IMG/VR virus record: IMGVR_UViG_3300030329_005082
Location: 114,631-178,630 of that record
DNA: 64,000 bases
Strand: one strand, 5' to 3'
From: a virus
Of the stretch, positions 1 to 60,646 are shown piece by piece. Every line of letters begins with the position of its first letter. Position 1 is the first letter of the stretch. The position numbers were made by a program, and so were the translations under genes. Under the pieces are notes generated by a model that was given only the letters and a program-made list of their open reading frames with translations, had not been told where the DNA came from and did not search any database.

Positions 1-3000
1 AGCTGGCTTGCCAAACTGAGATACAAACTTGGCTAAATACCCATCCGAGCCGTATTTGTTTTCTTTCTTGCTCAAGAAAAACTTGGGAACGTTTGCTAGG
101 AAGTTAGAGACAGCCTTCTTGTAAAGAGTGTCGTCTAGTCCCTTGGGAGTAATAGATCCGCTGACATCCAAGTAAAGCAACTGATTCAAATCAGAAAGAA
201 CTGTTGGTTGTTCATATCCCTCTTCTAGTGCAGCGGCGGGATCTAGAATGGTCTCAAAAGGTAGTCTGTCTGCCCAGAAAAACTTATTGACCTCGGCAGA
301 ACTCCACTCCGCATCTTCTCTATTTCTTCGTTTGTTTCCGGGGATTGATCCTGCACCTGTTGTGGCGCTGCTAAGTGATCCGCTTAGGCAACCACGAAGA
401 GTATCATAGTGCAATGCTGCAAGGGGGAAGTATTGATCTGCATTTCTTTCGGCTCGGCGGATTGGATAATCTACAGCAACACCAGATTTGATGGAGTTAT
501 ACATGATACCTGGGGCAAAGAATGGTCGCAATAAGGATCTCCAAGCCGGGGTAGTGCCGGCAGAACTACCAGCATATACAGCGTTTGATGAGTAGGCTGT
601 TCGGAACAAGGCAGCAATATCCAGAGTCCTATCAACAGGATAGAAGCCACTGTAAGGCAAGAGCTTGACAATTGCTTCAGACTCTAGCTCAAAATGTCGG
701 GGATAATCATTGAATATAAAATTACGATCACCTTCGTCAGTAGGCATGAAATCTTCCAAGAACTCAATATCATCGGTTTGAGCAAATCTTTCATAGAAGT
801 TTGGATTGGTTCCGTCAAAATTGCTGGTGTTAGATCCTGTTATTTCAAGACTTGCTGATATGACTGCAAATAACGATCCTTCGTTTTGATATTGTTCTAT
901 GTGCTCGCTGATTCTGAACTCTGGTAAGATTGTGTGGTCTTTGCCGACAAGTCTAATATCTGAAACATAATCTTCATATGAGCCGTAGAATGGATATGTT
1001 GCTGGTGCGAGTTGTCCCCTTCTTGGTCCATCAACATAACGACGGTCGCGACCGGCAGTCCAGGCTGGTCTTGTGTAAGCGGAACCGGGTGAGCGAGGCT
1101 CTGGCAGTTCTCCCGAAAACGCAGTTCCGGCAGCAACACCACCAGCAAACGCCACTTGGGTGCATTGTCCGCCAGAAATTCCTGTACCTGTAATTGCCTG
1201 CCCATTCATTGCCACACCTGCGACATCTGCTACGATCTGCATCACAGCACCAACAGCACCTGGGTCTACTGGTGTTACATCAATCTCTGCATTTGATTTG
1301 CACAAAGAAACAGAAGTATAGATGGCATTTATAACATCGTTTGTAGTACTAACGCCGCTACAACCTATGAAATAAGATGTTGCATTAACTCTCAACCCTG
1401 CATCGCTTGGCAGTTTGGTCTGGTCAAATGTGAATGTCACAGCAGTAGTGGTTGTTGTAATTATGATTGTTTGTCCGTCCAAAATGCTCGCAACTGTCTC
1501 AACGGCTGTAATTGATGCAGTTGCCGGCACGGCTGGAGTTGCGTATGACACAGTTGTGGTTACTGGAATATTGTACACATATTGTGCTGAGTTTATGTTT
1601 GCGGCAGCATAAGAAGCTGTCCCGTCGCGGAAAGAAGCATTGGTCACCTTATCATTAATCGTTCCATAATGGGTCATCATTAGTTCGCCGCAAGGCATTG
1701 TTGCCGCATCGGCAAAAACTACAGGAACAGAAGCTGTCAAAATCGTGACCAAAGATCCTGTAGAGTCAGAATACAAATATGAATCAAGTGGCCACATAGA
1801 CCCAGAACCATTCCCAGAGCCAATTGGAGCCGATGCATCAAGTGAGTTATAAGGCTTTTGTTCTGATGCTTGCACTGTGTACCCTTGGGAGGTTACAAAA
1901 GGTGTCTCAACTCTTGGTAGCTGACGAACGTATGTTAGCTTATTTGCGGCAGAGCGCAAGTCAGCATATGTACTGAAAGATGAAACATCATAACTTGATA
2001 CAGCTATGTCACTCCTCCAGAAATCATTAATAAATGACAACCTAGCTCTGGAGCCGGAGAAATATGTATAAATCTCTTTAGGATAAATTGTCTCAGGATA
2101 TGAGAACACCTTGATAAGATCTGCACCGTTGGCAACTCGTGGTGTTGGTGGTACAAATTGATCTCTTAGTATTTCATAAGGTCTTTTTATTTTCCCGTAA
2201 GAAAACTTAATGCCGCCGTTTATTTGTCTGTTTAGTTCTCTGTTTGCAAAGCCCATCAACTCGTTACCATAACTGTATTTCATGCTTACAGTTATTTTCT
2301 CACCCAATGTTTTTGCTGGTGTCCCGAGCGGGGTTTTGATTTGGTGAATTAAAGGCTTGTATCTAGAAGTGACCGGTGCTTCTCTAAGAGAGACAGAATA
2401 ATAATAATTTGACGTGTTGCCTTTTCTATCCGTCACTTGTCTTGAGGAAGTTGAATTACTAAACGAATTCATAGGCAACCCAGTGCCCTGTTCTACTGTT
2501 TCTTGAACTTGTGGCAGAACATTGTAAGTGTTTTTCTGAGTATAGAACTTCGCATAAGGGTCTGTTCCATTGCTAATCTGCTTCCATGGTACAAAATCGC
2601 GATTCTTAGACCACTTAAACTTCTTTGTATAAGCTAAATCAAAAATCAGGGCAGAGTCCCAACTAGAAACAGCATTGAGGCTCTGAGTCACAAATGAAAT
2701 ATTTTCTGGATAACGAGACCGTAGAGCAACATATTGTCCATATATAGCAGAATTGTCCGAACCAGAAATATAAGAAGTCCATTGAGATCTGTCAGCAGCA
2801 GGCAACGCTCTTGTTACATAACCATTATCAAACGTACTGCCAGTAATAACAGTAGTCGTTGGGAACGTAGTGCCAATCATCAACTGATTCACACGGTTCA
2901 TTGGTGTTTTATGTATAGAGGGTATTACTGAACTTCCTGTTTCAAACCCTCCAAACGTTGAGTGCTTCTTAAGGTTTTCATTATGTGGCAGTCTTACTGC

Positions 3001-6000
3001 CATATTTCTGAAGGGCAGTGCATTGTTGGGAGAGAACTGATCAGAGTTCACATCCCTAAATTGTTGTTTAGAGTCTTGCTTGGAGCCGGGTGCAGCAAAT
3101 CGGTCAGTGAAGATTGTTTCATTTATTCTTCGTGAAGGTATCTGCCGTGGTGCAGGATAGTCTGCTGAGCCCGTTAGTCCAAGGGCTCTTCGGGCTGGTG
3201 TTGTTAGGAATGCTGTCGGCGCACTATAAGCATAATGACTGTTGTTGAAAACAAAGTCCATATTTGTGTCTGCGCGGTTGTTCCCTTGAACAACTTCATA
3301 ATATTTTGAATAGTTTCCGACTTTTCTGACGCCATCAGTTACTTGATGGTCAGAGATGACTGTTTTGATGTTTGCAATATTCAAAGGCGACTTGGAAGCC
3401 AAACCTCTTAGGTATTGACCTTTGGGCTTGTTTTCTATCGTCAAGGTTGTTATAGAGCCAGTCCCGCTAGCAATCTCTAAGCTGTATTCTTCGGCGCGAT
3501 CTACTGTTCTAAATGGTGCGTTATGACGTGCTTGAATACCACCAACCCACCTTTCAGCGAATGGACCCTGCATGGGAACACTTTGACGATAAGGAAGAAC
3601 ACTGTCTTCGTGGATATTGGTTAGTGATATGCCAGTAAGTCCGGAACTGTTGAGTCCAGCATTATATCCTGATACGATACTAGAACTTACCGCCGTAAAC
3701 GGAGTAATCTGACTACCCTTGTAGAGATTGCCGTCTTTGGTTGCTCGGAAAGCTACTTTTTTCTTTTCATTCGGAACATCTTCATCTGTACAATCTGGAA
3801 ATGCTTCAAATCTGTCAAAAGTTAAATCACGGAATCGGCGCTTCTTGTTGAGGTACTGATTGATACCGCCATAATAAGGAGGTATTAGTTTGGCGGAAAT
3901 ACAAACAATAGAGTTTGCACCCCTTTGAGTGGCTTTCTGATCTGTAGCAACAGTATGAGGAGGTCCAATTTCTCTGGACCATGCGTTTAAAACAGCATTT
4001 CTGGTTGCTAATATTCCATCAGAATCCGCAACAAGTGGTGGTACGTCTCTCTCGGCTCTTGTCTGCCACCAAACACAATTTTCATTTTGATTGCCGCTTA
4101 CTGGGTGGTGATTTTTTGCCCAACCGGGAATATCCAAACATATTGTGCCTCTTGGTGCGCCGAGGAGCCCGCCAGGTCCACCAGGGTGTCGGTCTCTTAG
4201 TATTGAGATCTTGTGTTGAATTTTCGGACGCTCAAGAACGTGGTTCTCAACAATTTTACGAACATCAGATGCGTGGCGAGCAGATTCAGGGAAAAACTCT
4301 TCAATCACCTGACTCATTGAAGTGTCTAGCCACTTGAAATAATCAATGTATTTTTCTAAGTCAGGAATATCGTTTCTTACCTTGCGGAAGAATATCTCTC
4401 TAACTTTTTCCATTCGCTTATAATTTAAACGATACTTGTTTACTGGTTCACCAATGAGGTTGTTAAAGTCTTCAATGCTAGCAAACAATTCAAGCATCCT
4501 GTTGGAGATGCTGCGATACATGGATCGTTCTACAGCAAAATAGAATGTCTCAGGTCTCGTATAAATTCCGAAAGTCTGCTCATCAGAATTGAGAGCTTGA
4601 ACCATCTCTTCGCCGCCAACATATTCAGGCACCTGAAGTTTACTGGTATGGATATAAGCTTTTCGGACTGGTGTTGAACTAGCCGCAAAGAAATCACCAC
4701 GTCCAGAATGTTGTCGTAAGTTAATATTACTGAACATTGCTTTCTGGTATTGACTTGGGTAATCCGCTGCGACGGAACCAGAAGAGAAATCTTGAACAAC
4801 AAAGCGACCAGAGGCGTCGCTTCCTGTAATATTTCCGAAGTCCCAGTTTAGGGCAAGTGTTTGAATGCGGGGTATATAAACATTTGGATTCTGAGCTTGG
4901 AAAGAATAAGCATTTCTATATGGACGGAGGCGTCCGTGAGTATCTGCTTCCTTAGCTTGAAGGTCTAGCGTTCCAGATGGGAAATAATCTGTCCAAAATC
5001 TAACACTAGAGGCACGGACATCTGTTTTTTCTAACGTGCTGCCTGTAAAGTTTGTCCTGTGAGCACCAACATAAATTCTCTTATTTGACTCTATGATTGG
5101 TGCAGCATCATTATAAGTCATAGATGCGCTGGCTAGGAAGCTATTTCTTTTAACTCCTGTATCATAATTTACACCGTAAAGTTCCAGGGTGTAGCCGTCT
5201 GTTGATACTGATGCGCCATTGATTGCATCTGTAAAAGGATATTTTGTAGGGCGTAGAGATAAAGTAAAGTTCCACTTTTGATTATCATATACGTCATTGA
5301 ATATAGAACTTGATAAAAGTGTCGTGCCGGCCCGATTCTTGACAACAAAATAAGCATCTCTGACCCGGTAATTTGGTGAATAAACTTTAGGATATTCCCC
5401 TGGAGACCTGATTGCATATACTTGAAGTCCGTGGTCATTCCCCGCAGTCTGCCATGTCATATCCGTGGAGGTTTGATCTGTATCAAAAGGCGTGTGGAAA
5501 CCCATCAAAGAAGAAGTCAAAACCCTTGGCATTTCGTAAGGCAACAATTCGGGATTATCTTTGTCTGGAAAAACTATTTCACTCTGTAAAGAAAAGGCAA
5601 ATTCTTCAAGGTTCAATGACCCTGTTACAAACCCTTTAGAATTAGTATTAGAAGCGTCGGGATACTGATAAACACTCGCCTTTACATCCCCCTGGTTTAA
5701 AAGTCCCGTAAAGTCTGCGAACTTTTTAGTACTCATCGTAGAGATATAATTGCTCTTAACTTCAAAGTCTGAATTATCAGGATACGTGTTGAGAGCTATG
5801 ACTTCTTCACCCACACCCAAACAACGAATGAAGTTTCTAATTGATTTTTCAGTACCCTTAGACTTTAGAATAAAACTAAGGTTGTTGTAGATGTTTTTAT
5901 AAATTGAATTTTTAACTTCTATGAGTCTCTGTTCAAAATTTATCTGCTCATCTCTTTGTAAGAATTGTTGTAAAGTGCCGGCATTTTGGAAGAATTCGGG

Positions 6001-7575
6001 CATTTCCAAACCCATTGATTCTACTAGGCGGTCATTATAAGGATACTCATTGATTGAGCCAGTGGCGCTGCCACTAATATATTTTACATGACGAAGCTCT
6101 TTAAGTGCGGTCAATTGATTATAAAGAGTGTCAAAATAGCTGGAAAGTATTTGTGTGACACTTACAATCTCATTTTCACCGTTTTCTTCCTCTTCAATTA
6201 TCCAATTAGGAAGATGATTCAACAAGCGAGAGTTGTTATTATAATCATAATTGCTGCCGGTTAAAACATATGCAGCCTTCGTGTCTACATAAAGCGGGTT
6301 GGAAGTTCTGATGATCGGGTCACCAACTTCTCTTACCGATTCTAATTCAAGTGAATCAACTGCTGAGGCTGTGTTTCTGCTGTGAGTTGTATTATATCCT
6401 GTAAAGGCACCATTAGATAAACGACCGGAATAATCCAAACATATACTGTCAATGCTCGCGGTCTGAGTAATGCCTTCGTTGAATTTTAGATAAACACCCA
6501 ATCCAACATTTGCGTCATATTTGTCTGTACCACCGCCAACGCTATCAAACCAATATCTTCCTATCTGTTCATCGTTGCGATTAGTCTTCCAAAATCTAAA
6601 TTCGTCAACAGACGCTGATAACTTTCCGTACCCCTGGGCGGCACCTGGCAGTCCTGATATGTCTGTTCTAAGAGCACCAATGTTACCAATCATTGAACCA
6701 GTGACTAAACCAATTTCCGCAGACACAGCAGGCGGAATAGCTGTTTGAACACAGGCACCATTTACAAAAAAGTCAATTGTAGGACTGGACCCAGAAGTAT
6801 TAAATACAAATGAGAAGTTTCGGAAAACTCCGTCTGAAATACTTATACCACCTGTTGTCGGGACTGGAATTCCATCAAAACCGTGGGAACCGGATTTCAT
6901 TGTTACATAAAATCTATCCTCTGTCCCTTGTCTTAGTTCAATTCTCAATCTGCCGTATTGAGCAGATGTGGTTGCAGCACCATTCCAAAGGTCAAAAATA
7001 ACTTGACGCTCTGATGATGTTGAGGCATCAATTTCCGAGTTCTTCTTTAGGAAGAATTCAACTGAACTACCGCTTGGACCGCCGAATTCTAGATTGGAAG
7101 TTCTGTTTTTAGATTCTTTATAAATGGATCCTGAATGGGGTCCGCCTTTGATTTGGATATATTCTGCTGAGGATGAGTAATATCCAGAAGCGTGTGAGCT
7201 TATGGCTCCATAATCTGCGCCAATAGTGACATATCCTGTAGAAGTTGGATATACATCTTCAAGGATATATTTCTCTAAAGGGTTGATTTTATTATAAAAG
7301 CCGACTCTTTCTAATATTGATCCATCGTATGGGTAATAGTTCGCAATATAATTGAAAGCGTTGCTATAATATTGCTCAGCCGAACCAAACCTAACAAAAC
7401 TTTCTGGCTTTGAATAATCAACAGGGGGAAGAAAATATTTCTGTTTTTGTATAGAAGCAGACAGGTGAGCTTCGGACTCTATTCCGTCACCTAAAGTATC
7501 AGGCGCACTAAGTTTCAGGAATTTTCCGACAGTAACAATTTGTAGGTTATTGTCAAATAGTTTTTTTACACTCAT
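1..7575 (-). CDS. giant virion structural protein, LamG-like domain (C-terminus beyond window)
   Basis: The minus frame stays open from the ATG at 7575 to the window edge, giving more than 2,520 residues with no stop seen. The start overlaps the stop of the upstream gene as ATGA. Residues about 165-285 have the alternating beta pattern of a LamG/concanavalin-A-like domain (a segment ending FFVNGA). The rest is rich in Ser, Thr, Gly, Asn and Tyr, as in phage tail or receptor-binding proteins. Its place directly after the gp6-type wedge gene and a DNRLRE-like protein suggests a baseplate-periphery or adsorption role (inference). No specific family is recognised for most of its length, and the C-terminus is missing. 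Confidence 0.8.
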   Translation of the reverse strand, partial: MSVKKLFDNNLQIVTVGKFLKLSAPDTLGDGIESEAHLSASIQKQKYFLPPVDYSKPESFVRFGSAEQYYSNAFNYIANYYPYDGSILERVGFYNKINPLEKYILEDVYPTSTGYVTIGADYGAISSHASGYYSSSAEYIQIKGGPHSGSIYKESKNRTSNLEFGGPSGSSVEFFLKKNSEIDASTSSERQVIFDLWNGAATTSAQYGRLRIELRQGTEDRFYVTMKSGSHGFDGIPVPTTGGISISDGVFRNFSFVFNTSGSSPTIDFFVNGACVQTAIPPAVSAEIGLVTGSMIGNIGALRTDISGLPGAAQGYGKLSASVDEFRFWKTNRNDEQIGRYWFDSVGGGTDKYDANVGLGVYLKFNEGITQTASIDSICLDYSGRLSNGAFTGYNTTHSRNTASAVDSLELESVREVGDPIIRTSNPLYVDTKAAYVLTGSNYDYNNNSRLLNHLPNWIIEEEENGENEIVSVTQILSSYFDTLYNQLTALKELRHVKYISGSATGSINEYPYNDRLVESMGLEMPEFFQNAGTLQQFLQRDEQINFEQRLIEVKNSIYKNIYNNLSFILKSKGTEKSIRNFIRCLGVGEEVIALNTYPDNSDFEVKSNYISTMSTKKFADFTGLLNQGDVKASVYQYPDASNTNSKGFVTGSLNLEEFAFSLQSEIVFPDKDNPELLPYEMPRVLTSSLMGFHTPFDTDQTSTDMTWQTAGNDHGLQVYAIRSPGEYPKVYSPNYRVRDAYFVVKNRAGTTLLSSSIFNDVYDNQKWNFTLSLRPTKYPFTDAINGASVSTDGYTLELYGVNYDTGVKRNSFLASASMTYNDAAPIIESNKRIYVGAHRTNFTGSTLEKTDVRASSVRFWTDYFPSGTLDLQAKEADTHGRLRPYRNAYSFQAQNPNVYIPRIQTLALNWDFGNITGSDASGRFVVQDFSSGSVAADYPSQYQKAMFSNINLRQHSGRGDFFAASSTPVRKAYIHTSKLQVPEYVGGEEMVQALNSDEQTFGIYTRPETFYFAVERSMYRSISNRMLELFASIEDFNNLIGEPVNKYRLNYKRMEKVREIFFRKVRNDIPDLEKYIDYFKWLDTSMSQVIEEFFPESARHASDVRKIVENHVLERPKIQHKISILRDRHPGGPGGLLGAPRGTICLDIPGWAKNHHPVSGNQNENCVWWQTRAERDVPPLVADSDGILATRNAVLNAWSREIGPPHTVATDQKATQRGANSIVCISAKLIPPYYGGINQYLNKKRRFRDLTFDRFEAFPDCTDEDVPNEKKKVAFRATKDGNLYKGSQITPFTAVSSSIVSGYNAGLNSSGLTGISLTNIHEDSVLPYRQSVPMQGPFAERWVGGIQARHNAPFRTVDRAEEYSLEIASGTGSITTLTIENKPKGQYLRGLASKSPLNIANIKTVISDHQVTDGVRKVGNYSKYYEVVQGNNRADTNMDFVFNNSHYAYSAPTAFLTTPARRALGLTGSADYPAPRQIPSRRINETIFTDRFAAPGSKQDSKQQFRDVNSDQFSPNNALPFRNMAVRLPHNENLKKHSTFGGFETGSSVIPSIHKTPMNRVNQLMIGTTFPTTTVITGSTFDNGYVTRALPAADRSQWTSYISGSDNSAIYGQYVALRSRYPENISFVTQSLNAVSSWDSALIFDLAYTKKFKWSKNRDFVPWKQISNGTDPYAKFYTQKNTYNVLPQVQETVEQGTGLPMNSFSNSTSSRQVTDRKGNTSNYYYSVSLREAPVTSRYKPLIHQIKTPLGTPAKTLGEKITVSMKYSYGNELMGFANRELNRQINGGIKFSYGKIKRPYEILRDQFVPPTPRVANGADLIKVFSYPETIYPKEIYTYFSGSRARLSFINDFWRSDIAVSSYDVSSFSTYADLRSAANKLTYVRQLPRVETPFVTSQGYTVQASEQKPYNSLDASAPIGSGNGSGSMWPLDSYLYSDSTGSLVTILTASVPVVFADAATMPCGELMMTHYGTINDKVTNASFRDGTASYAAANINSAQYVYNIPVTTTVSYATPAVPATASITAVETVASILDGQTIIITTTTTAVTFTFDQTKLPSDAGLRVNATSYFIGCSGVSTTNDVINAIYTSVSLCKSNAEIDVTPVDPGAVGAVMQIVADVAGVAMNGQAITGTGISGGQCTQVAFAGGVAAGTAFSGELPEPRSPGSAYTRPAWTAGRDRRYVDGPRRGQLAPATYPFYGSYEDYVSDIRLVGKDHTILPEFRISEHIEQYQNEGSLFAVISASLEITGSNTSNFDGTNPNFYERFAQTDDIEFLEDFMPTDEGDRNFIFNDYPRHFELESEAIVKLLPYSGFYPVDRTLDIAALFRTAYSSNAVYAGSSAGTTPAWRSLLRPFFAPGIMYNSIKSGVAVDYPIRRAERNADQYFPLAALHYDTLRGCLSGSLSSATTGAGSIPGNKRRNREDAEWSSAEVNKFFWADRLPFETILDPAAALEEGYEQPTVLSDLNQLLYLDVSGSITPKGLDDTLYKKAVSNFLANVPKFFLSKKENKYGSDGYLAKFVSQFGKPA

Positions 7576-29454: not shown

Positions 29455-29478
29455 AGAAAAAGCCGCCCGAAGGCGGCT
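29455..29478 (-). terminator. intrinsic terminator of the tmRNA
   Basis: On the minus strand, a 7-bp G/C-rich stem (AGCCGCC / GGCGGCT) with a short TTCG loop follows the tmRNA CCA end immediately. A T-rich tract TTTTTCTTTG comes next. This is a classic rho-independent terminator, positioned to end the tmRNA transcript. Confidence 0.85.
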
Positions 29479-29800
29479 GGTGGAGGTAGGGAGAATTGAA
29501 CTCCCGTCTTGTCTAGTTCCATAAAAAGGTCATTTACAAGGTTAGTAGTGCTTTTATCGTCGGCAAAACACTTGACTAGATCATTTTACTTCTGGTGAAA
29601 ATAATCAAAAACACTTAGGAATTCAAATATGGCTTTCTGTTTATTGGCTGCCACCGCCTCAAACATCGTCAGGTTATTAAGCTGCGAGTGCTAGTTGAAA
29701 ATCGTCGTTTGCGATTATTAGATAAGCGTTTTTAGTGAGCCACGCTTCCCTCACCCTTGCACCTTTTTTACTTTCCTATCAATCGATCCCGGTTACCCCC
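29478..29800 (-). ncRNA. ssrA: tmRNA (transfer-messenger RNA)
   Basis: The 323-nt RNA has the tRNA-like ends of tmRNA: a 5' GGGGGTA acceptor strand pairing with TACCTCC before ACCA, and a T-arm GGGAG-TTCAATT-CTCCC. The 5' domain carries the conserved CGGGATCGAT and GGTGCAAG-type segments. An internal mRNA-like part encodes the degradation tag. tmRNA with SmpB rescues stalled ribosomes and tags proteins for ClpXP; no smpB is visible here, so host SmpB would be needed. A sigma70-like promoter lies upstream and a terminator directly follows. Confidence 0.93.
29677..29712 (-). other. tmRNA tag-peptide reading frame
   Basis: Within the tmRNA, the resume codon GCA begins the frame ANDDFQLALAA followed by TAA. 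The terminal LAA and the AND start match the bacterial proteolysis-tag pattern read by ClpX. The tag interior (DDFQLA) can be compared with host tags to place the host. Confidence 0.88.
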
Positions 29801-44909: not shown

Positions 44910-44997
44910 TGGAGGAAGGAGAGGGATTCGAACCCTCGGTGGGTTGCCCCACACAGCATTTCCAATGCTGCACCATCGGCCTCTCGGTCATCCTTCC
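44910..44997 (-). tRNA. tRNA-Ser (GGA)
   Basis: This 88-nt tRNA has the long variable arm of class II tRNAs, anticodon loop TTGGAAA (anticodon GGA), T-arm GAGGG-TTCGAAT-CCCTC and acceptor GGAAGGA/TCCTTCC, with CCA encoded. The discriminator base is T, which is unusual for Ser (normally G). It reads UCC and UCU codons. Confidence 0.92.
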
Positions 44998-45000
44998 ATA

Positions 45001-45032
45001 TATAAGCAGTTTAAAGACATGCTTAGGTCATA
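45001..45032 (-). repeat. repeated stem-loop after tRNA-Ala, copy 1
   Basis: This 32-bp element matches the one at 45281-45312 at all but a few positions. On the minus strand it lies 18 nt after the tRNA-Ala CCA and folds as TAAGCA ... TGCTTA around an 11-nt loop. Both copies follow tRNA 3' ends, so a processing or spacer signal is plausible (inference). Confidence 0.6.
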
Positions 45033-45050
45033 CGCTAGAATCGCACTCTA

Positions 45051-45126
45051 TGGTGGAGAGTATCGGAGTCGAACCGATCACCCCCTGCGTGCAAAGCAGG
45101 CGCTCTACCAGATGAGCTAACTCCCC
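45051..45126 (-). tRNA. tRNA-Ala (TGC)
   Basis: This 76-nt cloverleaf has acceptor GGGGAGT/ACTCTCC with one G-T pair, D-arm GCTC...GAGC, anticodon loop TTTGCAC (anticodon TGC), T-arm ATCGG-TTCGACT-CCGAT, discriminator A and encoded CCA. The family call is clear. Confidence 0.95.
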
Positions 45127-45151
45127 ATTGATATAATTAGAAGGCAACAAA

Positions 45152-45271
45152 CTACTTTACTCTAAATCTATGATCAATCCATGACTTTGTGTAATACATG
45201 ATAGATAACCATACTGAAAACAGTAAACCATCAACATACCCAAGGCTATCCCAAATCTCTACGAGTTCCAT
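45152..45271 (-). CDS. 39-aa small membrane-type protein
   Basis: A 39-codon frame (MELVEIWDSLGYVDGLLFSVW...) preceded by AGGAGAACAA lies between two tRNAs. The middle (LLFSVWLSIMYY) is hydrophobic enough for one membrane helix. Too short to classify; the ribosome site and position make it likely real. Confidence 0.5.
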   Translation of the reverse strand: MELVEIWDSLGYVDGLLFSVWLSIMYYTKSWIDHRFRVK

Positions 45272-45280
45272 TTGTTCTCC

Positions 45281-45312
45281 TATAAGCAGTTTATAGACTT
45301 GCTTAGGTCTAT
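45281..45312 (-). repeat. repeated stem-loop after tRNA-Thr, copy 2
   Basis: Second copy of the 32-bp element, directly abutting the tRNA-Thr CCA end on the minus strand. The TAAGCA/TGCTTA stem is kept, and the loop region can alternatively pair as ATAGAC/GTCTAT. Differences from copy 1 lie at a handful of positions. Confidence 0.6.
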
Positions 45313-45387
45313 GGTGCCGGCTGTAGGGATCGAACCTACGGCCTTCGGGTTACAAATCCGATGCTCTCCCAACTGAGCTAAGCCGGC
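45312..45387 (-). tRNA. tRNA-Thr (TGT)
   Basis: This 76-nt tRNA has acceptor GCCGGCT/AGCCGGC, D-arm GCTC...GAGC, anticodon loop TTTGTAA (anticodon TGT), T-arm GTAGG-TTCGATC-CCTAC, discriminator A and encoded CCA. It is separated by 4 nt from the CAT tRNA. Confidence 0.95.
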
Positions 45388-45391
45388 GGTG

Positions 45392-45468
45392 TGGTAGGGG
45401 ACCAGAGACTTGAACTCTGAACCTCCCGATTATGAGTCGGATGCTCTAACCAATTGAGCTAATCCCCC
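45392..45468 (-). tRNA. tRNA with CAT anticodon (Met elongator or Ile2)
   Basis: This 77-nt tRNA has anticodon loop CTCATAA, T-arm CAGAG-TTCAAGT-CTCTG, acceptor GGGGGAT/GTCCCCT with a G1-T72 wobble, discriminator A and encoded CCA. It lacks the 1-72 mismatch of initiators, so it is an elongator Met or an Ile2 tRNA whose C34 would be changed to lysidine. A TilS-like gene lies about 1.5 kb upstream in the same direction, which favours Ile2. Against this, the acceptor positions 4 and 5 are G, not the C pairs important in E. coli. Identity left open. Confidence 0.9.
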
Positions 45469-45484
45469 ACAAATATAATATTCC

Positions 45485-46348
45485 CTATTCCTTATCTTGT
45501 ATATTTTTAGGGAAACCATTTTTTACTAATAGATTTCCCATTTCTACAAATTCTTCGTTGATTTCAAACCCTACCCACCTGTAGCCTCTTTTTTCGCAAA
45601 CATAACATTCGCTACCAGTGCCGGCAAAAGGTATAACAACTGTTGCACTTTTTCCATCTTCAATACAAGCATCCAGAAGAATTTCTGTGATTTTTGTTGG
45701 TTTTTGAGTTGGGTGAGAAATAGTATCATCAACCGAGAGTGCTTTTCTTTGCTTTGAGGTATACAGCATCTGATTTGAAGGAGAATAGAAAAATCTTTCT
45801 TTCAAACCTGCACCACCAGCCAAAGACGGAGTACAAATAACATCTCTTGGTAATGCACCTTTATCATGTGCTTTGTAGACTGTTTCTTTATCTCCAAACC
45901 GACCTTTTGTATTTTTCCTTTTTTTGCCGGCAGCATTCTTCAAAAACTGATCAGTATAAGGAACCCTTACTTGGTCTCTGAAAAATGTTCTCTGCTCTTT
46001 CCAGCAGCATAAAATAGATTCGTGCGTTCTTTGCCAAAAGTTTAAGCTCGGAACAGTTTTGTTTGTATAGTGCCACACGAGCCAGCGTTTATTCAAATCA
46101 ATATTCACAGACAAATGTGCCAGAATTTCAGAAAATCCATAAATATACATTACACCGTCGGATTTTAAAATTCGCTCACATTCTGCCAGCCATGATTGAG
46201 CCCATGAAATATATTCAGAGATATCAAGATTGGTCTTGTTGTTGCCATAATCTTTGCCAATATTATACGGCGGATCTAAGATAATACAATCCGCACTGTC
46301 TGATTTGACTTTACGAAGACCTTCAACTACATCAATATGATAAATCAT
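45485..46348 (-). CDS. DNA methyltransferase, N6-adenine/N4-cytosine type
   Basis: Starting at the ATG at 46348 (GGAG 5 nt upstream), the protein is 287 aa. Motif IV is DPPYN at residues 25-29 near the N-terminus, and motif I is PFAGTGSECYVCEKRGYRWVGFEINEE near the C-terminus. This is the beta-class order of PF01555 enzymes. A conserved HPTQKP segment precedes motif I. It methylates an exocyclic amino group in a DNA target that cannot be read from sequence. It follows a nuclease-like gene by 22 bp, suggesting a restriction-modification pair. Confidence 0.86.
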   Translation of the reverse strand: MIYHIDVVEGLRKVKSDSADCIILDPPYNIGKDYGNNKTNLDISEYISWAQSWLAECERILKSDGVMYIYGFSEILAHLSVNIDLNKRWLVWHYTNKTVPSLNFWQRTHESILCCWKEQRTFFRDQVRVPYTDQFLKNAAGKKRKNTKGRFGDKETVYKAHDKGALPRDVICTPSLAGGAGLKERFFYSPSNQMLYTSKQRKALSVDDTISHPTQKPTKITEILLDACIEDGKSATVVIPFAGTGSECYVCEKRGYRWVGFEINEEFVEMGNLLVKNGFPKNIQDKE

Positions 46349-46370
46349 CACCACTCCATTGTGGAATATT

Positions 46371-46982
46371 TTACCACATTTCAATCTCTTTGATAAATGG
46401 TAGGTCAATCAATTTATAGTAATTTGAAATTCCACCAACAATGTAATCATCGTTGTCAGATTTTTCACCGCCTTGTTGTTTTCGGAATGGCTTCCTGTCA
46501 ATCTGATTGATGTATTCAACAAAATCTTTTTTCTCCATGAAATATGCACGAATCAAAGGCGGCTTTGAGGTGCGATTTTTCTCAGAGATAATCTGATTTT
46601 TTTGATCATAGTTTGGATTAATTCCGAAAAAGATAAAACGTTCCCAATCTTTTTCCGCAGCAATATGATTAAAGGTAAAAGTATCAGGCTGGATTAGCTT
46701 TTGATCATCTTTAGTTCTTACTGAATTAGCCAGAGAAAACTTGATCTCGGTCTTATAGCCATCAATAATTCTATCATGCCCAGGATTTGTAGGTGATTCA
46801 ACTTTAGCACCTAACTGCATCTCCATAAACCCCTCTACATATTCTTCACCAAAGTGACCTTTTTGTTTGGGATCCATTCGGGGATAGTCTTCAAAGTACG
46901 TACCCCTCCAGTTGTTGTGCAGAGAACGATCAATGTACTCTTTAAGGTTTTTGTTTTCAAAGATTTTTTGATGTAGACTCAT
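46371..46982 (-). CDS. putative restriction endonuclease, PD-(D/E)XK type
   Basis: This 203-aa protein contains PGHDRIIDGYKTEIKFSLA, with D70 or D74 and E79-x-K81 fitting the PD-(D/E)XK core, and E46/E47 (HFGEEYVE) upstream. It ends 22 bp before the methyltransferase start and overlaps the TilS-like gene by 26 bp, so the three are one transcript. The size and pairing with a methyltransferase are typical of type II restriction endonucleases. The cleavage site is unknown. Confidence 0.62.
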   Translation of the reverse strand: MSLHQKIFENKNLKEYIDRSLHNNWRGTYFEDYPRMDPKQKGHFGEEYVEGFMEMQLGAKVESPTNPGHDRIIDGYKTEIKFSLANSVRTKDDQKLIQPDTFTFNHIAAEKDWERFIFFGINPNYDQKNQIISEKNRTSKPPLIRAYFMEKKDFVEYINQIDRKPFRKQQGGEKSDNDDYIVGGISNYYKLIDLPFIKEIEMW

Positions 46983-47577
46983 TTTTATATTCCTTTTCTA
47001 CGAGTTTACGAAATGTCTTTTCAACGCCCGGATTTACGAGCCGGGCATGGGGCATAATATCGTGCCTAATGATGCTTCTCATGAACTTTCTGTCTGCATT
47101 TCCTGGGTCAACAAGAAATGGCACCTCTTTTCTATTGCACCAATCTTCTAGAGAGCGTTTAGAGGTGGGGATAAAGGGTCTAATAACATTTTTGTTCTGG
47201 TAGGGGATAATCTTACCGTGACCATGGATAGAAGAGAATAAAAACCACTCAATCACGTCGTCTAAATTGTGCCCTGTTACAATAGGCATATTGAAGCTGT
47301 GGAAGAATTTGTAACGCTCATCTCGCCAATGTTCTTCAAGTGATTTTTTCGGCGGACAAGAGTTGTAATTAATTCCAATAACAATTGGAATATCCCTTTT
47401 ATCACAAAAATCTTTTACAAACCTTTTACACTTTCTTCCAAAGTTTGTGCCGTGATCAAAATAACAAGCGGTCACATCGTGATTGTTGTTGAGGAAATCT
47501 AAAATAGCCATTGAGTCTGGTCCGCCGCTGACAGCGACGCCCAATTCTCTTGGTAGTTTTTCTAGAATTCTCAACAT
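46957..47577 (-). CDS. tilS: TilS-like tRNA(Ile)-lysidine synthase
   Basis: The chosen ATG at 47577 follows AAGGAG, which overlaps the tRNA-Arg CCA end; upstream codons would be a translation of the tRNA. The 206-aa protein has the PP-loop SGGPDS (17-22), then CYFDHGTNFGRKC, GHNLDDVIEWFLF and PFIPTSKRSLEDWC, in the order of TilS. TilS uses ATP and lysine to make lysidine at C34 of tRNA-Ile2. It is shorter than bacterial TilS (usually over 320 aa) because the C-terminal domains are absent. The CAT tRNA downstream is a candidate substrate. Confidence 0.82.
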   Translation of the reverse strand: MLRILEKLPRELGVAVSGGPDSMAILDFLNNNHDVTACYFDHGTNFGRKCKRFVKDFCDKRDIPIVIGINYNSCPPKKSLEEHWRDERYKFFHSFNMPIVTGHNLDDVIEWFLFSSIHGHGKIIPYQNKNVIRPFIPTSKRSLEDWCNRKEVPFLVDPGNADRKFMRSIIRHDIMPHARLVNPGVEKTFRKLVEKEYKNESTSKNL

Positions 47578-47587
47578 TATAACTCCT

Positions 47588-47664
<77 letters not shown>

Positions 47665-56329: not shown

Positions 56330-56803
56330 TTATTCTTCTTCGGACGCAGGCTCTTGGCTTAGCTTGTCACGCCAGGATCTCTGATCCTTGAGAACTCTAG
56401 CATCATAAGATTCTAAAGTAAATAGTTTTGGATCCATGGATTCTATTTCTGTGGTTTCGCCTTTTTTAGAAGCTCTACTACTTTGAATAGACTTCATGGA
56501 AGCTAAAACTTCAATCATGTTTCCACCTGTTGTATTGCGGCGACCCATGTCCTCAACTTTCTCAACAATACCAAAATAGTAATCTCTTGTGTCTGCTTTA
56601 AAATTGTAGACACTGAATATGACAGCATCTCCTTGTCCTGCCTCACGGCGACCGACTTCTACGCCACCAAACAACTCTATGTTGCCCTCAAAACGCTCTC
56701 TTTTATCTCTCTTGGCTAGTTCTTCGGGTGTTTCATCTCTTTCTAGAAGAGCCTTGACTTCTTTAATAACTAGTTTTTTGAGTTCTGTCTTTGTGAGTTT
56801 CAT
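56330..56803 (-). CDS. leader-tagged protein A, unknown function
   Basis: This 157-aa protein starts MKLTKTELKKLVIKE, one of a family of leaders shared by neighbouring genes. After the leader (conserved Glu at 15) comes a basic/acidic helix, then a beta-rich body (GNIELFGGVEVGRREAGQGDAVIFSVYNFKADTRDYYFGIVE). No domain recognised. The leader resembles a capsid-targeting sequence with a prohead-protease site (inference). Confidence 0.6.
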   Translation of the reverse strand: MKLTKTELKKLVIKEVKALLERDETPEELAKRDKRERFEGNIELFGGVEVGRREAGQGDAVIFSVYNFKADTRDYYFGIVEKVEDMGRRNTTGGNMIEVLASMKSIQSSRASKKGETTEIESMDPKLFTLESYDARVLKDQRSWRDKLSQEPASEEE

Positions 56804-56804
56804 T

Positions 56805-57272
56805 TTATTTGGCTTGCCCTTTGGTTTCTAAATGTTTTTTATAATCTTCATAATCTGGTACTCGCCCGCTTTCTGGAGTCCACATGTCCTGACCGGACAT
56901 GAGTTGATTTTGTGGGAGCGGAGCAAGGAAACCATCTTTTACTGTCCTCCTTATGTGATCTCTAAAAGCTACCCTTTTATCAGTATCTTCCAGTTCCTGC
57001 TTGATTACTTTTGCCGAAAGTTTGGCAGCGTCAGACATTTCTTCTATATGTTTTTCTACTTTTGCTTTTGCCTCTTCCGGGCTAACGTTAAATACCGTCT
57101 GGAGTCTCCACAAATTATATCTTGGTCCCTCGCCAGTACTATCAAGTCCAGCATACCATAATCTACGCTGTAATTCTCGGTACTGATCAACCATATCGTA
57201 GGCATCCATATTTCTTTCTGCCAATAGCTCTTCTTTGATAAGTTTTCTTATAATATCTTTTGTAAGTTTCAT
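56805..57272 (-). CDS. leader-tagged protein B, unknown function
   Basis: I place the start at the ATG at 57272, immediately after the stop of the upstream gene. The longer frame would add seven residues lacking the leader. The 155-aa protein begins MKLTKDIIRKLIKEELLAE, with the conserved Glu at 14. The rest is helical and charged, with no recognised domain (LWRLQTVFNVSPEEAKAKVEKHIEEM). It shares the leader type with its neighbours. Confidence 0.6.
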   Translation of the reverse strand: MKLTKDIIRKLIKEELLAERNMDAYDMVDQYRELQRRLWYAGLDSTGEGPRYNLWRLQTVFNVSPEEAKAKVEKHIEEMSDAAKLSAKVIKQELEDTDKRVAFRDHIRRTVKDGFLAPLPQNQLMSGQDMWTPESGRVPDYEDYKKHLETKGQAK

Positions 57273-57273
57273 T

Positions 57274-57708
57274 TTATTCCACGCTATCGTCACGAGGTTT
57301 CAACTCGTCCACAAATTTAGGTTGTGGTCCCTTCCAAACTTTCCTTGATTCTATAAAATCATATAAGTCACTAACATTCTGCATTGCTATCATGACTCTC
57401 ATGATCTCTCTGTCAAGCCTATTTTTTTCAGTATTAATTTGTCTATGGACTTGCTCCATCTCTGTGTAGGATCGTTGTAGGGATGCAAGCCAGTCTTTGC
57501 GCGCTGCGGATCGCTCCACGGTCACGCCGTGGGGCTGATCAAAGCCGCCCACGAGTTCTAGTGTTCCATCTTCAAGATCGTCAACTAGATGTTCATAATA
57601 ATCTCGGGCTCTGTTAACAAGCACCTGACCACGGCTGCTATCCCGATCTCGCTCGTTGATTATCTCTTCTTTGATGAGTTCCCTAATAGTATTTTTTGTA
57701 AGTTTCAT
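57274..57708 (-). CDS. leader-tagged protein C, unknown function
   Basis: This 144-aa protein begins MKLTKNTIRELIKEEIINE (conserved Glu at 14) and continues as a helical, charged body (VNRARDYYEHLVDDLEDGTLELVGGF ... SLQRSYTEMEQVHRQINTEKNRLDREIMRVM). The start overlaps the stop of the ART-like gene by one base (TAATG). No domain recognised. Confidence 0.6.
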   Translation of the reverse strand: MKLTKNTIRELIKEEIINERDRDSSRGQVLVNRARDYYEHLVDDLEDGTLELVGGFDQPHGVTVERSAARKDWLASLQRSYTEMEQVHRQINTEKNRLDREIMRVMIAMQNVSDLYDFIESRKVWKGPQPKFVDELKPRDDSVE

Positions 57709-58832
57709 TAGTAATAAGTCTCCCCTTCAGGGTGGTTCTCTTTATAAACCTTCATTAAATAGTCAGCAAAACTGTAAATATCTTTTTTGCCGACACTCCT
57801 CATCAATGAAGCTAAGCTCTCCAAAGCATCTCGGGATGCAGGTTTAGAACTACTATTATGTAAAGCGTTTTTTATATCTTCTACTGCGGCTGTAGGATGC
57901 TTCGCAAGTTGATGAAAGAATTGTTTAGCTTTCCTTCTTCTGTTTCGTTCGCTTGTATAGCCGTCTTCGCTGTCACCAGTGATCAACTCCTCTGGCATTT
58001 TTTCTTCGCCTTTGAGGATTGCCTCTGCTGCTAATGTGAACATTCGCAATTCATCTGTACCATAACCGGGACCGTCAGCTATTTCTTTAAAGCCGTCTTT
58101 GGGTACTTTTTCAAGCTCTGTTTCTGATTCACTAAGAGCCTGTTCAAACTGTTTCCAGCTTGTTAGTGCCTTATCTTTAGAGACACCAAGTGTCATCCAA
58201 GTTTTGGGATTGACATGAATATAAAAGGGTATACCCTTGTCTTCTAACATTTCAACCACTTTTCTGCCATAGTGATAATCAGCAAATCTAAGCTGAAGTT
58301 TATTTACGAGTTCAAATTCCCCGGTTTCCCAGTCTGTAGTGCGGGTATCATAAAGAGGCAGAGCGATATGAACAGCAGTTATATATTTGTCGGCATCCTC
58401 AATAAATGGCTTATCGGTCACAATACGATCTTCTGCTTCATATACATCGTCATCAGTCGGAGAATAAAAAGTCTTTCCTATTTTAGCTGATTTTTTAGAG
58501 GATCCATAATCTTTTGAAGACCAGTAATCCATTGGTATACCCTTGAACCGTTGTCCTAATTTTCTACCATCCAGTTGGATAACGGCACCATAAGGATGGC
58601 GACTGCTAAAAGCTCCATAAGAAATAGAAGGTGTCCTTGTCGTGGACATATAATACATCTTGCCTTTACTGTGTTCTCCTTCTGTGTCAGGTTTGGTAAA
58701 AGCTCCGGACGTAAGAAAACGATTATCTTTGAGAACAGCAGCTAATCTATAAAGCTGGGTGTGATGCCATAGGACATCTGATAACCCTTCTTTAATAACG
58801 AACTTACGCCATGAATCAAAATGATTTTTCAC
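57708..58832 (-). CDS. leader-tagged putative ADP-ribosyltransferase-like protein
   Basis: This 374-aa protein starts MKNHFDSWRKFVIKEG (a WRK-type leader with Glu at 15). Residues 20-165 resemble an ADP-ribosyltransferase fold: LWHHTQLYRLAAVLKDNRFL (H23/H24), KMYYMSTTRTPSISYG, GAVIQLDGRKL, VYEAEDRIVTDK (E132, E134) and YITAVHIALPL. These are the His, Ser/Thr-Thr-Arg and Glu landmarks in order. The C-terminal half is helical and unassigned. T4 Alt is also an ADP-ribosyltransferase packaged in the head by an N-terminal targeting leader, so a similar role is possible. The fold call was made by eye. Confidence 0.62.
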   Translation of the reverse strand: MKNHFDSWRKFVIKEGLSDVLWHHTQLYRLAAVLKDNRFLTSGAFTKPDTEGEHSKGKMYYMSTTRTPSISYGAFSSRHPYGAVIQLDGRKLGQRFKGIPMDYWSSKDYGSSKKSAKIGKTFYSPTDDDVYEAEDRIVTDKPFIEDADKYITAVHIALPLYDTRTTDWETGEFELVNKLQLRFADYHYGRKVVEMLEDKGIPFYIHVNPKTWMTLGVSKDKALTSWKQFEQALSESETELEKVPKDGFKEIADGPGYGTDELRMFTLAAEAILKGEEKMPEELITGDSEDGYTSERNRRRKAKQFFHQLAKHPTAAVEDIKNALHNSSSKPASRDALESLASLMRSVGKKDIYSFADYLMKVYKENHPEGETYY

Positions 58833-58834
58833 AG

Positions 58835-59626
58835 TTAGTCCTCTACGGACATCATTTTGTCATATGAATTTGTTTTTGTATCAGACAAGATGCCAAGGTA
58901 TCCGTTTCTTCTGAGTGTTTTGAAAGCTAGATTCTCTACGGAATACTCACCTACAGTCTCTAATCCTGTTTGACGAAATCTTTTAATTTTTGCCTTCACT
59001 TTGTCAGCTTGGTCAATTGCTTCTTGATACTTGCCTTCATTGTAAAGTTCAACAACTTCATCAATCTGATTTTCAATTGCAGCCGCCTTTAGTTGAATAT
59101 CCCGATTATCAATTTGGGGATTTTCACGATCAGGTTTTACGATCCACTCGTTATCTAATATTGAATAAAGTCCTGAAGCTACATGAGGTTCTCTGGAATC
59201 TTGTCCGTAAATTTCAACTTCATAGCCAAGCATTGTAATATCATGAGCATTGTTCCAAACATTTTTGGCAGCCATAAAGTAATCACGAACCAACTCTTCG
59301 TCCTCATTTATTTCGGAAAAATCAAAAAGGACATGAAGATCTACGTCGGAAAAGCGCGAGTAATTGTAGTTTGCAAGTGACCCTGTAAATGTAATATCTT
59401 TCAAGAGTGCATCACCCGCACGGCTGCTGTTAATAAAATCTAAAGCAATATCTAAAAGCTTTTGTCGTATTTCGGGATCAAGCTTATCCCCTGGTTGGTT
59501 CCAGAAGTCTTTGTTTAATTCTGTGTGAGGCTCAAAAGAAAAAGGAATCTTGATTTCAATATCAAGATCTTCTGATAAATACTTTCTCCAATTTCTGGAT
59601 AATTTGTGTATTGAAACATCACTCAT
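58835..59626 (-). CDS. leader-tagged Pol-beta-type nucleotidyltransferase
   Basis: This 263-aa protein begins with a SRNWRKYLSED segment of the same leader class. It contains the nucleotidyltransferase signature FTGSLANYNYSRFSDVDLHVLFDF: G82-S83, then D94-x-D96, and a third acidic strand (GYEVEIYG). Similar GSLANYN-type proteins occur in T4-like marine phages. They could transfer a nucleotide to a protein or RNA. The C-terminal half is helical. Target unknown. The gene overlaps its upstream neighbour by 4 bp. Confidence 0.78.
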   Translation of the reverse strand: MSDVSIHKLSRNWRKYLSEDLDIEIKIPFSFEPHTELNKDFWNQPGDKLDPEIRQKLLDIALDFINSSRAGDALLKDITFTGSLANYNYSRFSDVDLHVLFDFSEINEDEELVRDYFMAAKNVWNNAHDITMLGYEVEIYGQDSREPHVASGLYSILDNEWIVKPDRENPQIDNRDIQLKAAAIENQIDEVVELYNEGKYQEAIDQADKVKAKIKRFRQTGLETVGEYSVENLAFKTLRRNGYLGILSDTKTNSYDKMMSVED

Positions 59627-59847
59627 GATGGACCTGACTTGCCTATTGTTGGCTTCTCTGTAAAAGGTTTAGTATTTTTTACTGGCCCCATCGCCAACTT
59701 CTTGTACATCTTCTTGAATGACTTGAGATATGTGCTTTGTGGTCGCTTCTTGAGATAAGAGTAAGGATCACCCTTTTCTGATTCGTTTATAAGTTCATTC
59801 AAGGTCTCTCTGATGGCATTTCGTAGCTGTGATTTGGTTACTTTCAT
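59623..59847 (-). CDS. leader-tagged protein D, short
   Basis: The longer frame starts upstream, but the ATG at 59847 follows the AATAAAATG context and begins the leader MKVTKSQLRNAIRETLNE, so the protein is 74 aa. The first 29 bp of the gene are identical to those of the gene at 60178. The rest is basic (KKRPQSTYLKSFKKMYKKLAMGPVKNTKPFTEKPTIGK), with no domain recognised. Confidence 0.6.
   Translation of the reverse strand: MKVTKSQLRNAIRETLNELINESEKGDPYSYLKKRPQSTYLKSFKKMYKKLAMGPVKNTKPFTEKPTIGKSGPS
59819..59847 (-). repeat. 29-bp leader repeat, copy 1
   Basis: The bases from 59847 to 59819 (start codon and leader of the 74-aa gene) are identical to 60178-60150, the same place in the upstream gene. 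The downstream sequences diverge at once. This is a recent copy of the leader alone. Confidence 0.85.
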
Positions 59848-59878
59848 TTTATTTACCTGGGGGTTCTGTATCTGGGCT

Positions 59879-60178
59879 CTAATACCCCCGTCTCCTTTTC
59901 TCATCAGGGGTGATGATCTGGGCATGATCCCTGTTATTTGATCTCACAGGTGTCGATAAAGCTTTCAGACTGGCTTTGTAGTCCTCATCCGTTTCTATTT
60001 TGTGTACTGCTTGTGTAAGGGTTGCCATCAATTCTTCACTTTTGGAACTTTTATTCGCTCCCAGTACTGTGAGAACTGTGCGGACTCGACCCAAAAGAGC
60101 ATTCGTATCGCTTGATGTAACTGCCTCTAAAATAGATTCTTTAATTATTTTTCGTAGCTGTGATTTGGTTACTTTCAT
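59879..60178 (-). CDS. leader-tagged protein E, unknown function
   Basis: This 99-aa protein begins MKVTKSQLRKIIKESILEA (conserved Glu at 14) and continues as helix-rich sequence (LLGRVRTVLTVLGANKSSKSEELMATLTQAVHKIETDEDYKAS). Its start overlaps the stop of protein F (ATGA). No family recognised. Confidence 0.6.
   Translation of the reverse strand: MKVTKSQLRKIIKESILEAVTSSDTNALLGRVRTVLTVLGANKSSKSEELMATLTQAVHKIETDEDYKASLKALSTPVRSNNRDHAQIITPDEKRRRGY
60150..60178 (-). repeat. 29-bp leader repeat, copy 2
   Basis: Second copy of the identical 29-bp leader segment, at the start of the 99-aa gene. Beyond it the two genes share no obvious similarity. Confidence 0.85.
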
Positions 60179-60537
60179 TGATCTTTTACTTCTTCTTTAC
60201 ATCTTTCATATTTTTCTTCAGTAGCCTCTGACCATTCACTTCTTTTGGTTGTGCCGGCTTTCTCTCCTACGGACTTTGTACAGATAGCATACTCATTTTT
60301 TTCTTCTGTGATGCCTTCTTTTACCATGCCGAGCGTAGTGCGAAGGTCATTAAGTTCACAAGGGCTCATTTTCATGTGAGCGCCATACGCTTCTAGTGCT
60401 GATTCATCTTTCCATGACTCGGCACCATAGTCCTTGATAGCCCAATGCTTATAGTCATAAGCCATGTCGGCACCGTGTAGCTTGATATTTATTGCTTCAC
60501 GAATTACTGTTTTCAGTTGAGACTTCGTTAGTTTCAT
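60175..60537 (-). CDS. leader-tagged protein F, unknown function
   Basis: This 120-aa protein begins MKLTKSQLKTVIREAIN (conserved Glu at 14). It then shows a compact helical body with a late Cys (YERCKEEVKDQ) and an earlier Cys (PCELNDL, CTKS). It overlaps protein E by 4 bp and the 49-aa gene by about 40 bp. No family recognised. Confidence 0.6.
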   Translation of the reverse strand: MKLTKSQLKTVIREAINIKLHGADMAYDYKHWAIKDYGAESWKDESALEAYGAHMKMSPCELNDLRTTLGMVKEGITEEKNEYAICTKSVGEKAGTTKRSEWSEATEEKYERCKEEVKDQ

Positions 60538-60646
60538 CTTTTAGTTCCCTTATACGCTTCATAACAGCAGCAGTAAGCTTTTCAGATCGCGCATGTTCTT
60601 TCAATCCTGAACGTATTTGCTTCCAAAATTCATTTTTTGTGATCAT
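60497..60646 (-). CDS. leader-like 49-aa protein G
   Basis: The frame MITKNEFWKQIRSGLKEHARSEK... is 49 codons with GGGAG upstream. It starts with the same M-x-T-K and a Trp-Lys/Ile-Arg pattern as the tagged genes, but its glutamates sit elsewhere. The overlap with protein F makes it a possible leader-only or short variant. Confidence 0.5.
   Translation of the reverse strand: MITKNEFWKQIRSGLKEHARSEKLTAAVMKRIRELKDETNEVSTENSNS

Follow-up and report, generated by a model that had tools for sequence, protein, structure and literature searches.

The closest described counterparts of the genes reported here are those for the internal proteins (IPs) and Alt of phage T4. IPI, IPII, IPIII and Alt have unrelated bodies and a common short N-terminal propeptide, 10-19 residues long in the IPs and 7 in Alt, which ends at an L/I-x-E site for the prohead protease gp21 (PMC9026906; PMC12373910). 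In IPIII the first 10 residues are enough for packaging, residues 4 and 7 serving targeting and residues 8 and 10 cutting (PMC9026906). The IPs act as inhibitors of type IV restriction enzymes, Alt has ADP-ribosyltransferase activity (PMC9026906; PMC12373910), and it is established that T-even internal proteins share nothing but the leader (PMC12373910). In phage P1 the N-terminal 30 residues of DarB, an anti-restriction cargo protein, suffice to bring a reporter into the head (PMC9024508). SPN3US and phiKZ package many proteins, some processed after Glu, and have a prohead protease of family S80 (PMC5694885), while the polyvalent proteins of phages and conjugative elements are predicted to be injected and hold ADP-ribosyltransferase (ART), GNAT, peptidase and nucleotide-signal enzymes (PMC5512222). 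Here we describe two families of short N-terminal leaders, leader 1 and leader 2, which together head about 25 genes of a phage (IMG/VR record IMGVR_UViG_3300030329_005082, 178,630 bases) and which are very probably capsid-targeting sequences (CTS) of the T4 style, removed by proteolysis. They were noticed in a 64,000-base stretch, positions 114631-178630 of the record (the window); the remainder of the record was read too.

Scanning the starts of open reading frames (ORFs) over the whole record, together with a profile search, placed leader 1, with the consensus MK[ILV]TKxxLRxxI[KR]E (or MKITKSQLRKIIKE), on 15 genes spread over the 178.6-kb phage, and throughout the record the profile matched gene starts and not gene interiors. 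A preliminary description of the window had reported six neighbouring proteins beginning MK[LV]TKxx[LI][RK], in five of which the Glu is residue 14 and in the sixth residue 15; all six stand on the minus strand where it placed them, with Glu as described (Table 1). The block it saw is real, but the set is not local, since nine more leader-1 genes and three weaker cases (genome 21069, 80528 and 70525) lie outside the window. The WRKFVIKE and WRKYLSE starts that it treated as a related form are present, but belong to a separate second family with a gene run of its own. Leader 2, written as MKKLLTEWRKFLKE or MKLLLENWRKYLNE, heads seven genes in one run at genome 89-93 kb in its MKKLLTEWRKFLKE form, and looser forms occur on three further genes, namely MKTSSWRKFLLE (91875) and the two W-R-K genes of the block. 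A proposed third form, on a 49-aa gene (MITKNEFWKQIR), does contain LKE at residues 15-17, yet is a weak look-alike below the leader-1 profile threshold. In an all-against-all comparison of the first 15 residues of the genes (BLOSUM62), 118 pairs among 30 genes scored at least 35, against 0 pairs for an equal number of internal segments, and a few of the links reflect other duplicated genes. The sharing of leaders is beyond chance.

Both leaders are also found on hundreds of unrelated phage proteins in IMG/VR. Degenerate DNA patterns returned at least 120 stretches for leader 1 and at least 118 for leader 2, and the loci analysed yielded 164 and 173 distinct proteins, respectively. Clustering sorted 148 leader-1 bodies into 135 clusters and 153 leader-2 bodies into 81; the bodies, which the preliminary description had called unrelated, are largely so. 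Its "new phage group" gives way to a trait common to many uncultured T4-type phages. It had also pointed to an L/I-x-E-type site in the leaders, and conservation in both families indeed ends at or just past [LI]xE. Among leader-2 proteins the Glu carries 3.5 bits of information, a value preset by the search pattern, which fixes that residue; the residue after it carries 0.5 bits and later ones about 0.1-0.3. Leader-1 proteins keep E15 and L/I16 too, with 0.1-0.6 bits past residue 16. A second [LIVMF]xE begins at residues 17-24 in 90 of the 164 (32 expected), and because of this excess the true cut in leader 1 may lie at residue 14 or at about 20-22. Assemblies of bacteria and archaea totalling 257 Gb contained only 15 stretches that match leader 1; long contigs with multiple copies look phage-like, and one of 305 kb combines 21 matches to a related pattern with an S77 protease. 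The phage-like contigs NHDW01000006.1 and PBIO01000025.1, binned with bacterial genomes, hold as many as about 18 leader-1 genes within 8 kb, a density far above that of the phage studied here. A tblastn search of cultured phages with the bare leaders gave one weak match to leader 1 and no match to leader 2, probably an effect of low-complexity masking and of the short query.

The preliminary description had suggested looking for a gp21-like prohead protease elsewhere in the genome, and the record encodes one (Peptidase_S77, E=1.3e-28), along with a T4-type major capsid protein (Gp23, E=7e-74) and portal (Portal_T4, E=6e-80); for all three PHROGs agree with the Pfam assignment. The protease aligns to T4 gp21 (5jbl) and retains GELDHP and SSRGLG, so that both His and Ser are conserved; the aligned 5jbl sequence has Ala at the His position and we take it to be an inactive mutant. 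A single-sequence structure model of the protease was uninformative (predicted local distance difference test, pLDDT, 35). By alignment, the N-terminal part of the capsid protein (..MARLLENQAAQLLKE/SSTMELGDVEGF.., the slash marking the boundary here and below) appears to carry its own LKE cleavage site, LLENQAAQLLKE58/S, the same position reading ..QAKQLISE/A in Mel-JY01 and ..QAKQIVSE/A in immuto.

Leader 1 and the S77 protease occur together. All 21 leader-1 IMG/VR records longer than 100 kb contain S77, as against one of five control records found with an arbitrary 14-mer (Fisher p=3e-4), and for records of at least 50 kb the figures are 29/36 and 3/19 (Fisher p=6e-6). Seven leader-1 records of 50-100 kb are without S77; gp23 is likewise absent from six of these, which indicates that the records do not cover the head genes. 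The seventh (G097) has large structural repeat genes first, upstream of the scaffold gene, and appears to start past the position of the protease. For leader 2, three records longer than 100 kb have neither S77 nor gp23, and a further record, G129, ends near its gp23.

The 374-aa protein of the block, which carries a looser form of leader 2, allows the leader to be followed independently of its own sequence. Its model has a mean pLDDT of 77, with residues 1-12 under 50 as a separate low-confidence helix, and Foldseek against the Protein Data Bank (PDB) gave DarT DNA ADP-ribosyltransferases as best matches (prob up to 0.99, E=7e-3), followed by KptA; as modelled it has a DarT/KptA-like ADP-ribosyltransferase fold, the activity being a prediction. 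H23, S63, R66, E132, E134 and R136 are invariant in an alignment of 18 sequences and are putative catalytic residues, assigned from the alignment. The homologues were mostly picked by a body motif. They bear many unrelated leaders, nearly all with a terminal [LIVF]xE-type motif directly before the domain, and the junction Glu is invariant in the 18 despite the differing leaders. The homologue of Slickus01 starts MKIDSLYESLLEE/G and is one of a run of genes with that start, that of Mel-JY01 starts MIKLKSLLQE/I and that of Vibrio K566 MKKFNEFANELAE/A; S77 is present in each of these phages, each with its own leader. Homologues found in IMG/VR by the body motif start MKYLKIFEQFLNE/G, MKTIEIISE/G, MRATEFVTE/A and MKTFQELVDLVTE/N, among others. 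In the Dickeya giant phages JA29/JA11, from which S77 and gp23 are absent, the homologue is leaderless and starts MKPLYHFTQ. Another ART-like body (genome 91067) carries leader 2 here, but in a close relative it forms the C-terminal part of a larger polypeptide, attached through ..LRNLIREAMEDE..; such fusions show modularity, not virion localisation. Most relatives of this second body lie within very large fusions, and an RNase_T exonuclease domain is present in some of these.

We read the leaders as capsid-targeting tags because S77 co-occurrence, leader swapping with a junction [LI]xE and leader loss where S77 is lacking agree, all of them read from sequence. By analogy with T4 we infer that the conserved leader helix would bind the scaffold core within the prohead and that the S77 protease would cut past [LI]xE, freeing the body within the head; freed bodies would be packaged along with the DNA, ejected into the host and act there as effectors of early takeover or against host defence. 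In T4 itself, where a protein with Asp at CTS position 10 is packaged but stays uncut, the MKTYQEFIAE sites are recovered by a pattern built after the published CTS. Leader 2 holds the aromatic-xx-aromatic-[LI]-x-E spacing of YQEFIAE (Y4, F7, I8 and E10 in T4; W8, Y/F11, L/I12 and E14 in leader 2); leader 1 has only hydrophobics and [IL]xE in common with it. The phage studied here differs from T4 in its leader sequences, in having two families, in the number of genes (about 25 against a handful) and in the breadth of its predicted enzymatic cargo. P1 DarB is alike in N-terminal head targeting, but the Dar proteins lack a common N-terminal consensus and P1 a known separate scaffold, whereas here there is a common leader with a gp21-type site. 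SPN3US and phiKZ differ in their mostly long propeptides and other protease family, and no shared short leader appears in the part of the source available. Polyvalent proteins fuse their domains in one polypeptide, whereas here they are mostly separate proteins, each address-tagged. A 1016-aa Nudix protein (Pfam 5e-14) encoded just upstream of the leader-2 run does resemble the polyvalent type; it lacks its own leader, and inspection by eye shows a YHGT segment of ART-like appearance close to its C-terminus.

The cargo differs between the two families. Leader 2 heads larger, often enzymatic proteins (median 197.5 aa), in which Pfam recognises protein kinase, ART-PolyVal, GNAT, Zeta toxin-like and other AAA ATPases, Nudix, tRNA-ligase and LigT phosphoesterases, nucleotidyltransferase and HAD; in the phage studied here these include ART-PolyVal (4e-4, below the curated cut-off) and GNAT (1.6e-5). 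The 263-aa protein of the block, with homologues in cultured phages, matches NTP_transf_2 below the Pfam cut-off (E=0.0035) and PHROG 36119 (E=6.9e-44). Two cargo domain types match known phage takeover enzymes, T4 Alt and the GNAT Rac of phiKMV-like phages (PMC7824862). Leader-2 proteins are likely to be injected effectors. We are less sure of this role for leader 1, found mainly on small proteins of unrecognised fold (median 106 aa). As to expression, the coding strand has 17 copies of the octamer CTATTTAT and the opposite strand one; the octamer precedes the scaffold gene, a 1123-aa gene that is probably the tail sheath, and the leader-1 genes at 80528, 81751, 87361 and 100632. It may be a late promoter, and its position before virion and leader-1 genes alike is a hint that leader genes are co-expressed with virion genes. 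A different element, TTGACATTGAGCGTCAAGATGGTTATGCT, is present in three near-identical copies (genome 81667, 82784 and 83429); it is a sigma-70-like promoter and contains a palindrome, TTGACattgagcGTCAA, perhaps an operator.

Several points weigh against our reading. Packaging and cleavage of the leader proteins are argued by analogy, [LI]xE is a short motif, and beyond it leader 1 is unlike the T4 CTS in sequence. Shared ancestry may partly inflate the co-occurrence with S77, for which the control set above 100 kb is small (n=5). Some ART homologues have very short leaders or starts chosen by us, and the DarT match of the 374-aa protein is one of predicted fold only. Most leader-1 bodies have no recognisable domain, so that to call them effectors is a guess. 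Published virion proteomics of the leader-bearing cultured phages immuto (Flavobacterium), Slickus01 (Alishewanella) and Mel-JY01 (Microcystis) was not found in the open-access library searched.

An alternative that we consider unlikely, though less so than the two that follow, is that the leader is a prohead-core signal on mainly structural, scaffold-filling proteins (like T4 gp67/gp68), which are cut and lost rather than injected as effectors. The small size and usual lack of domains of leader-1 proteins would suit it, as would the second [LIVMF]xE within 24 residues in many of them, expected of multiply cut core proteins, and the leader-1 gene at 71618 that adjoins the protease gene; leader 2, on the other hand, stands on recognisable enzymes without a structural role, and the bodies are hypervariable between phages, unlike core proteins. 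It is improbable that the leader directs proteins elsewhere (tail or baseplate, host membrane, an intracellular phage compartment, an assembly chaperone) and that its [LI]xE end is coincidental: an amphipathic N-terminal helix is compatible with any such destination, head localisation being itself deduced, but the boundary fits gp21 specificity and follows the S77 protease, and the leader is gone where S77 is gone. Finally, an expression element (ribosome-binding, codon ramp) or mobile DNA segment with no protein signal, to which the position of leaders exactly at gene starts, often in runs of adjacent genes, might point, is already largely excluded and has very little probability left, since identical residues of the leader-1 copies in this genome use different codons in 46% of comparisons (saturation expectation 62%), the 40 nt upstream of leader-1 genes are 30% identical, and across phages the residue pattern is conserved and the DNA is not. 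Codon divergence and dissimilar upstream DNA mean that neither recent DNA duplication nor a common regulatory sequence accounts for the leaders, and a DNA-level repeat or promoter element as their origin was rejected on these grounds.

The coordinates of these and other features are collected in Table 1. A search for tandem repeats in the giant open frame at the start of the window found none.

Table 1. Leader-bearing genes of the block and other features of the record. Genome, position in the 178,630-base record; window, position in the 64,000-base stretch.
Feature	Frame	Coordinates	Strand	Leader and remarks
157-aa protein	window	56330..56803	-	leader 1 MKLTKTELKKLVIKE, 56759-56803; Glu at residue 15
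155-aa protein	window	56805..57272	-	leader 1 MKLTKDIIRKLIKE, 57231-57272; Glu at residue 14; alternative in-frame GTG 21 nt upstream of start
144-aa protein	window	57274..57708	-	leader 1 MKLTKNTIRELIKE, 57667-57708; Glu at residue 14
374-aa protein	window	57708..58832	-	leader 2 form MKNHFDSWRKFVIKE (WRKFVIKE), 58788-58832; GTG start
263-aa protein	window	58835..59626	-	leader 2 form MSDVSIHKLSRNWRKYLSE (WRKYLSE), 59570-59626; then nucleotidyltransferase-like domain
74-aa protein	window	59623..59847	-	leader 1 MKVTKSQLRNAIRE, 59806-59847; Glu at residue 14
99-aa protein	window	59879..60178	-	leader 1 MKVTKSQLRKIIKE, 60137-60178; Glu at residue 14
120-aa protein	window	60175..60537	-	leader 1 MKLTKSQLKTVIRE, 60496-60537; Glu at residue 14
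49-aa ORF	window	60497..60646	-	MITKNEFWKQIRSGLKE; doubtful, degenerate look-alike
Major capsid protein	genome	65879-67591		
Prohead protease (S77)	genome	70969-71571		
Portal	genome	73701-75593		
1123-aa gene	genome	59589-62960		
1016-aa Nudix protein	genome	92950-96000		
CTATTTAT sites, examples	genome	63025, 68732, 81034, 82105, 87751, 100994		
CTATTTAT sites, examples	window	14802, 19149, 29435, 34535, 47889		
Phage tmRNA and five tRNAs	window	29478-29800; 44910-47664		tmRNA tag ANDDFQLALAA
GroEL-like gene	genome	17702-19288		by sequence start
Giant open frame	window	1-7575		at least 2525 codons; continues past window edge

The leader principle is known already from T4, and N-terminal head targeting from P1 DarB; the novelty lies in which leader sequences are used, how many genes of one genome carry them, how widely they occur among uncultured phages and how varied the enzymatic cargo is. 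No paper containing the leader strings tried was found in the open-access library searched, most subscription journals being outside the scope of that search. We think it reasonably likely that a large share of uncultured T4-type phages fill the head with enzymes of many kinds, tens of them per phage (ADP-ribosyltransferases, protein kinases, Nudix, HAD, acetyltransferases and phosphoesterases), by means of interchangeable, lineage-specific N-terminal tags that each end in the prohead protease site, and that this effector set can be read from sequence, metagenomes included. Injected phage proteins are usually identified by virion proteomics, in few cultured phages. If the leaders are packaging tags, the first 15 residues could suffice to mark hundreds of unknown proteins of uncultured phages as probably injected, either as early effectors or as anti-defence factors, and the rule behind this (a leader ending in [LI]xE, plus an S77 protease) is easily tested; the leaders would also add to the short tags available for bringing foreign proteins into phage heads, a use that the T4 tag already has. 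Many uncultured large phages carry these same tags, and sequence alone may show what such phages inject.

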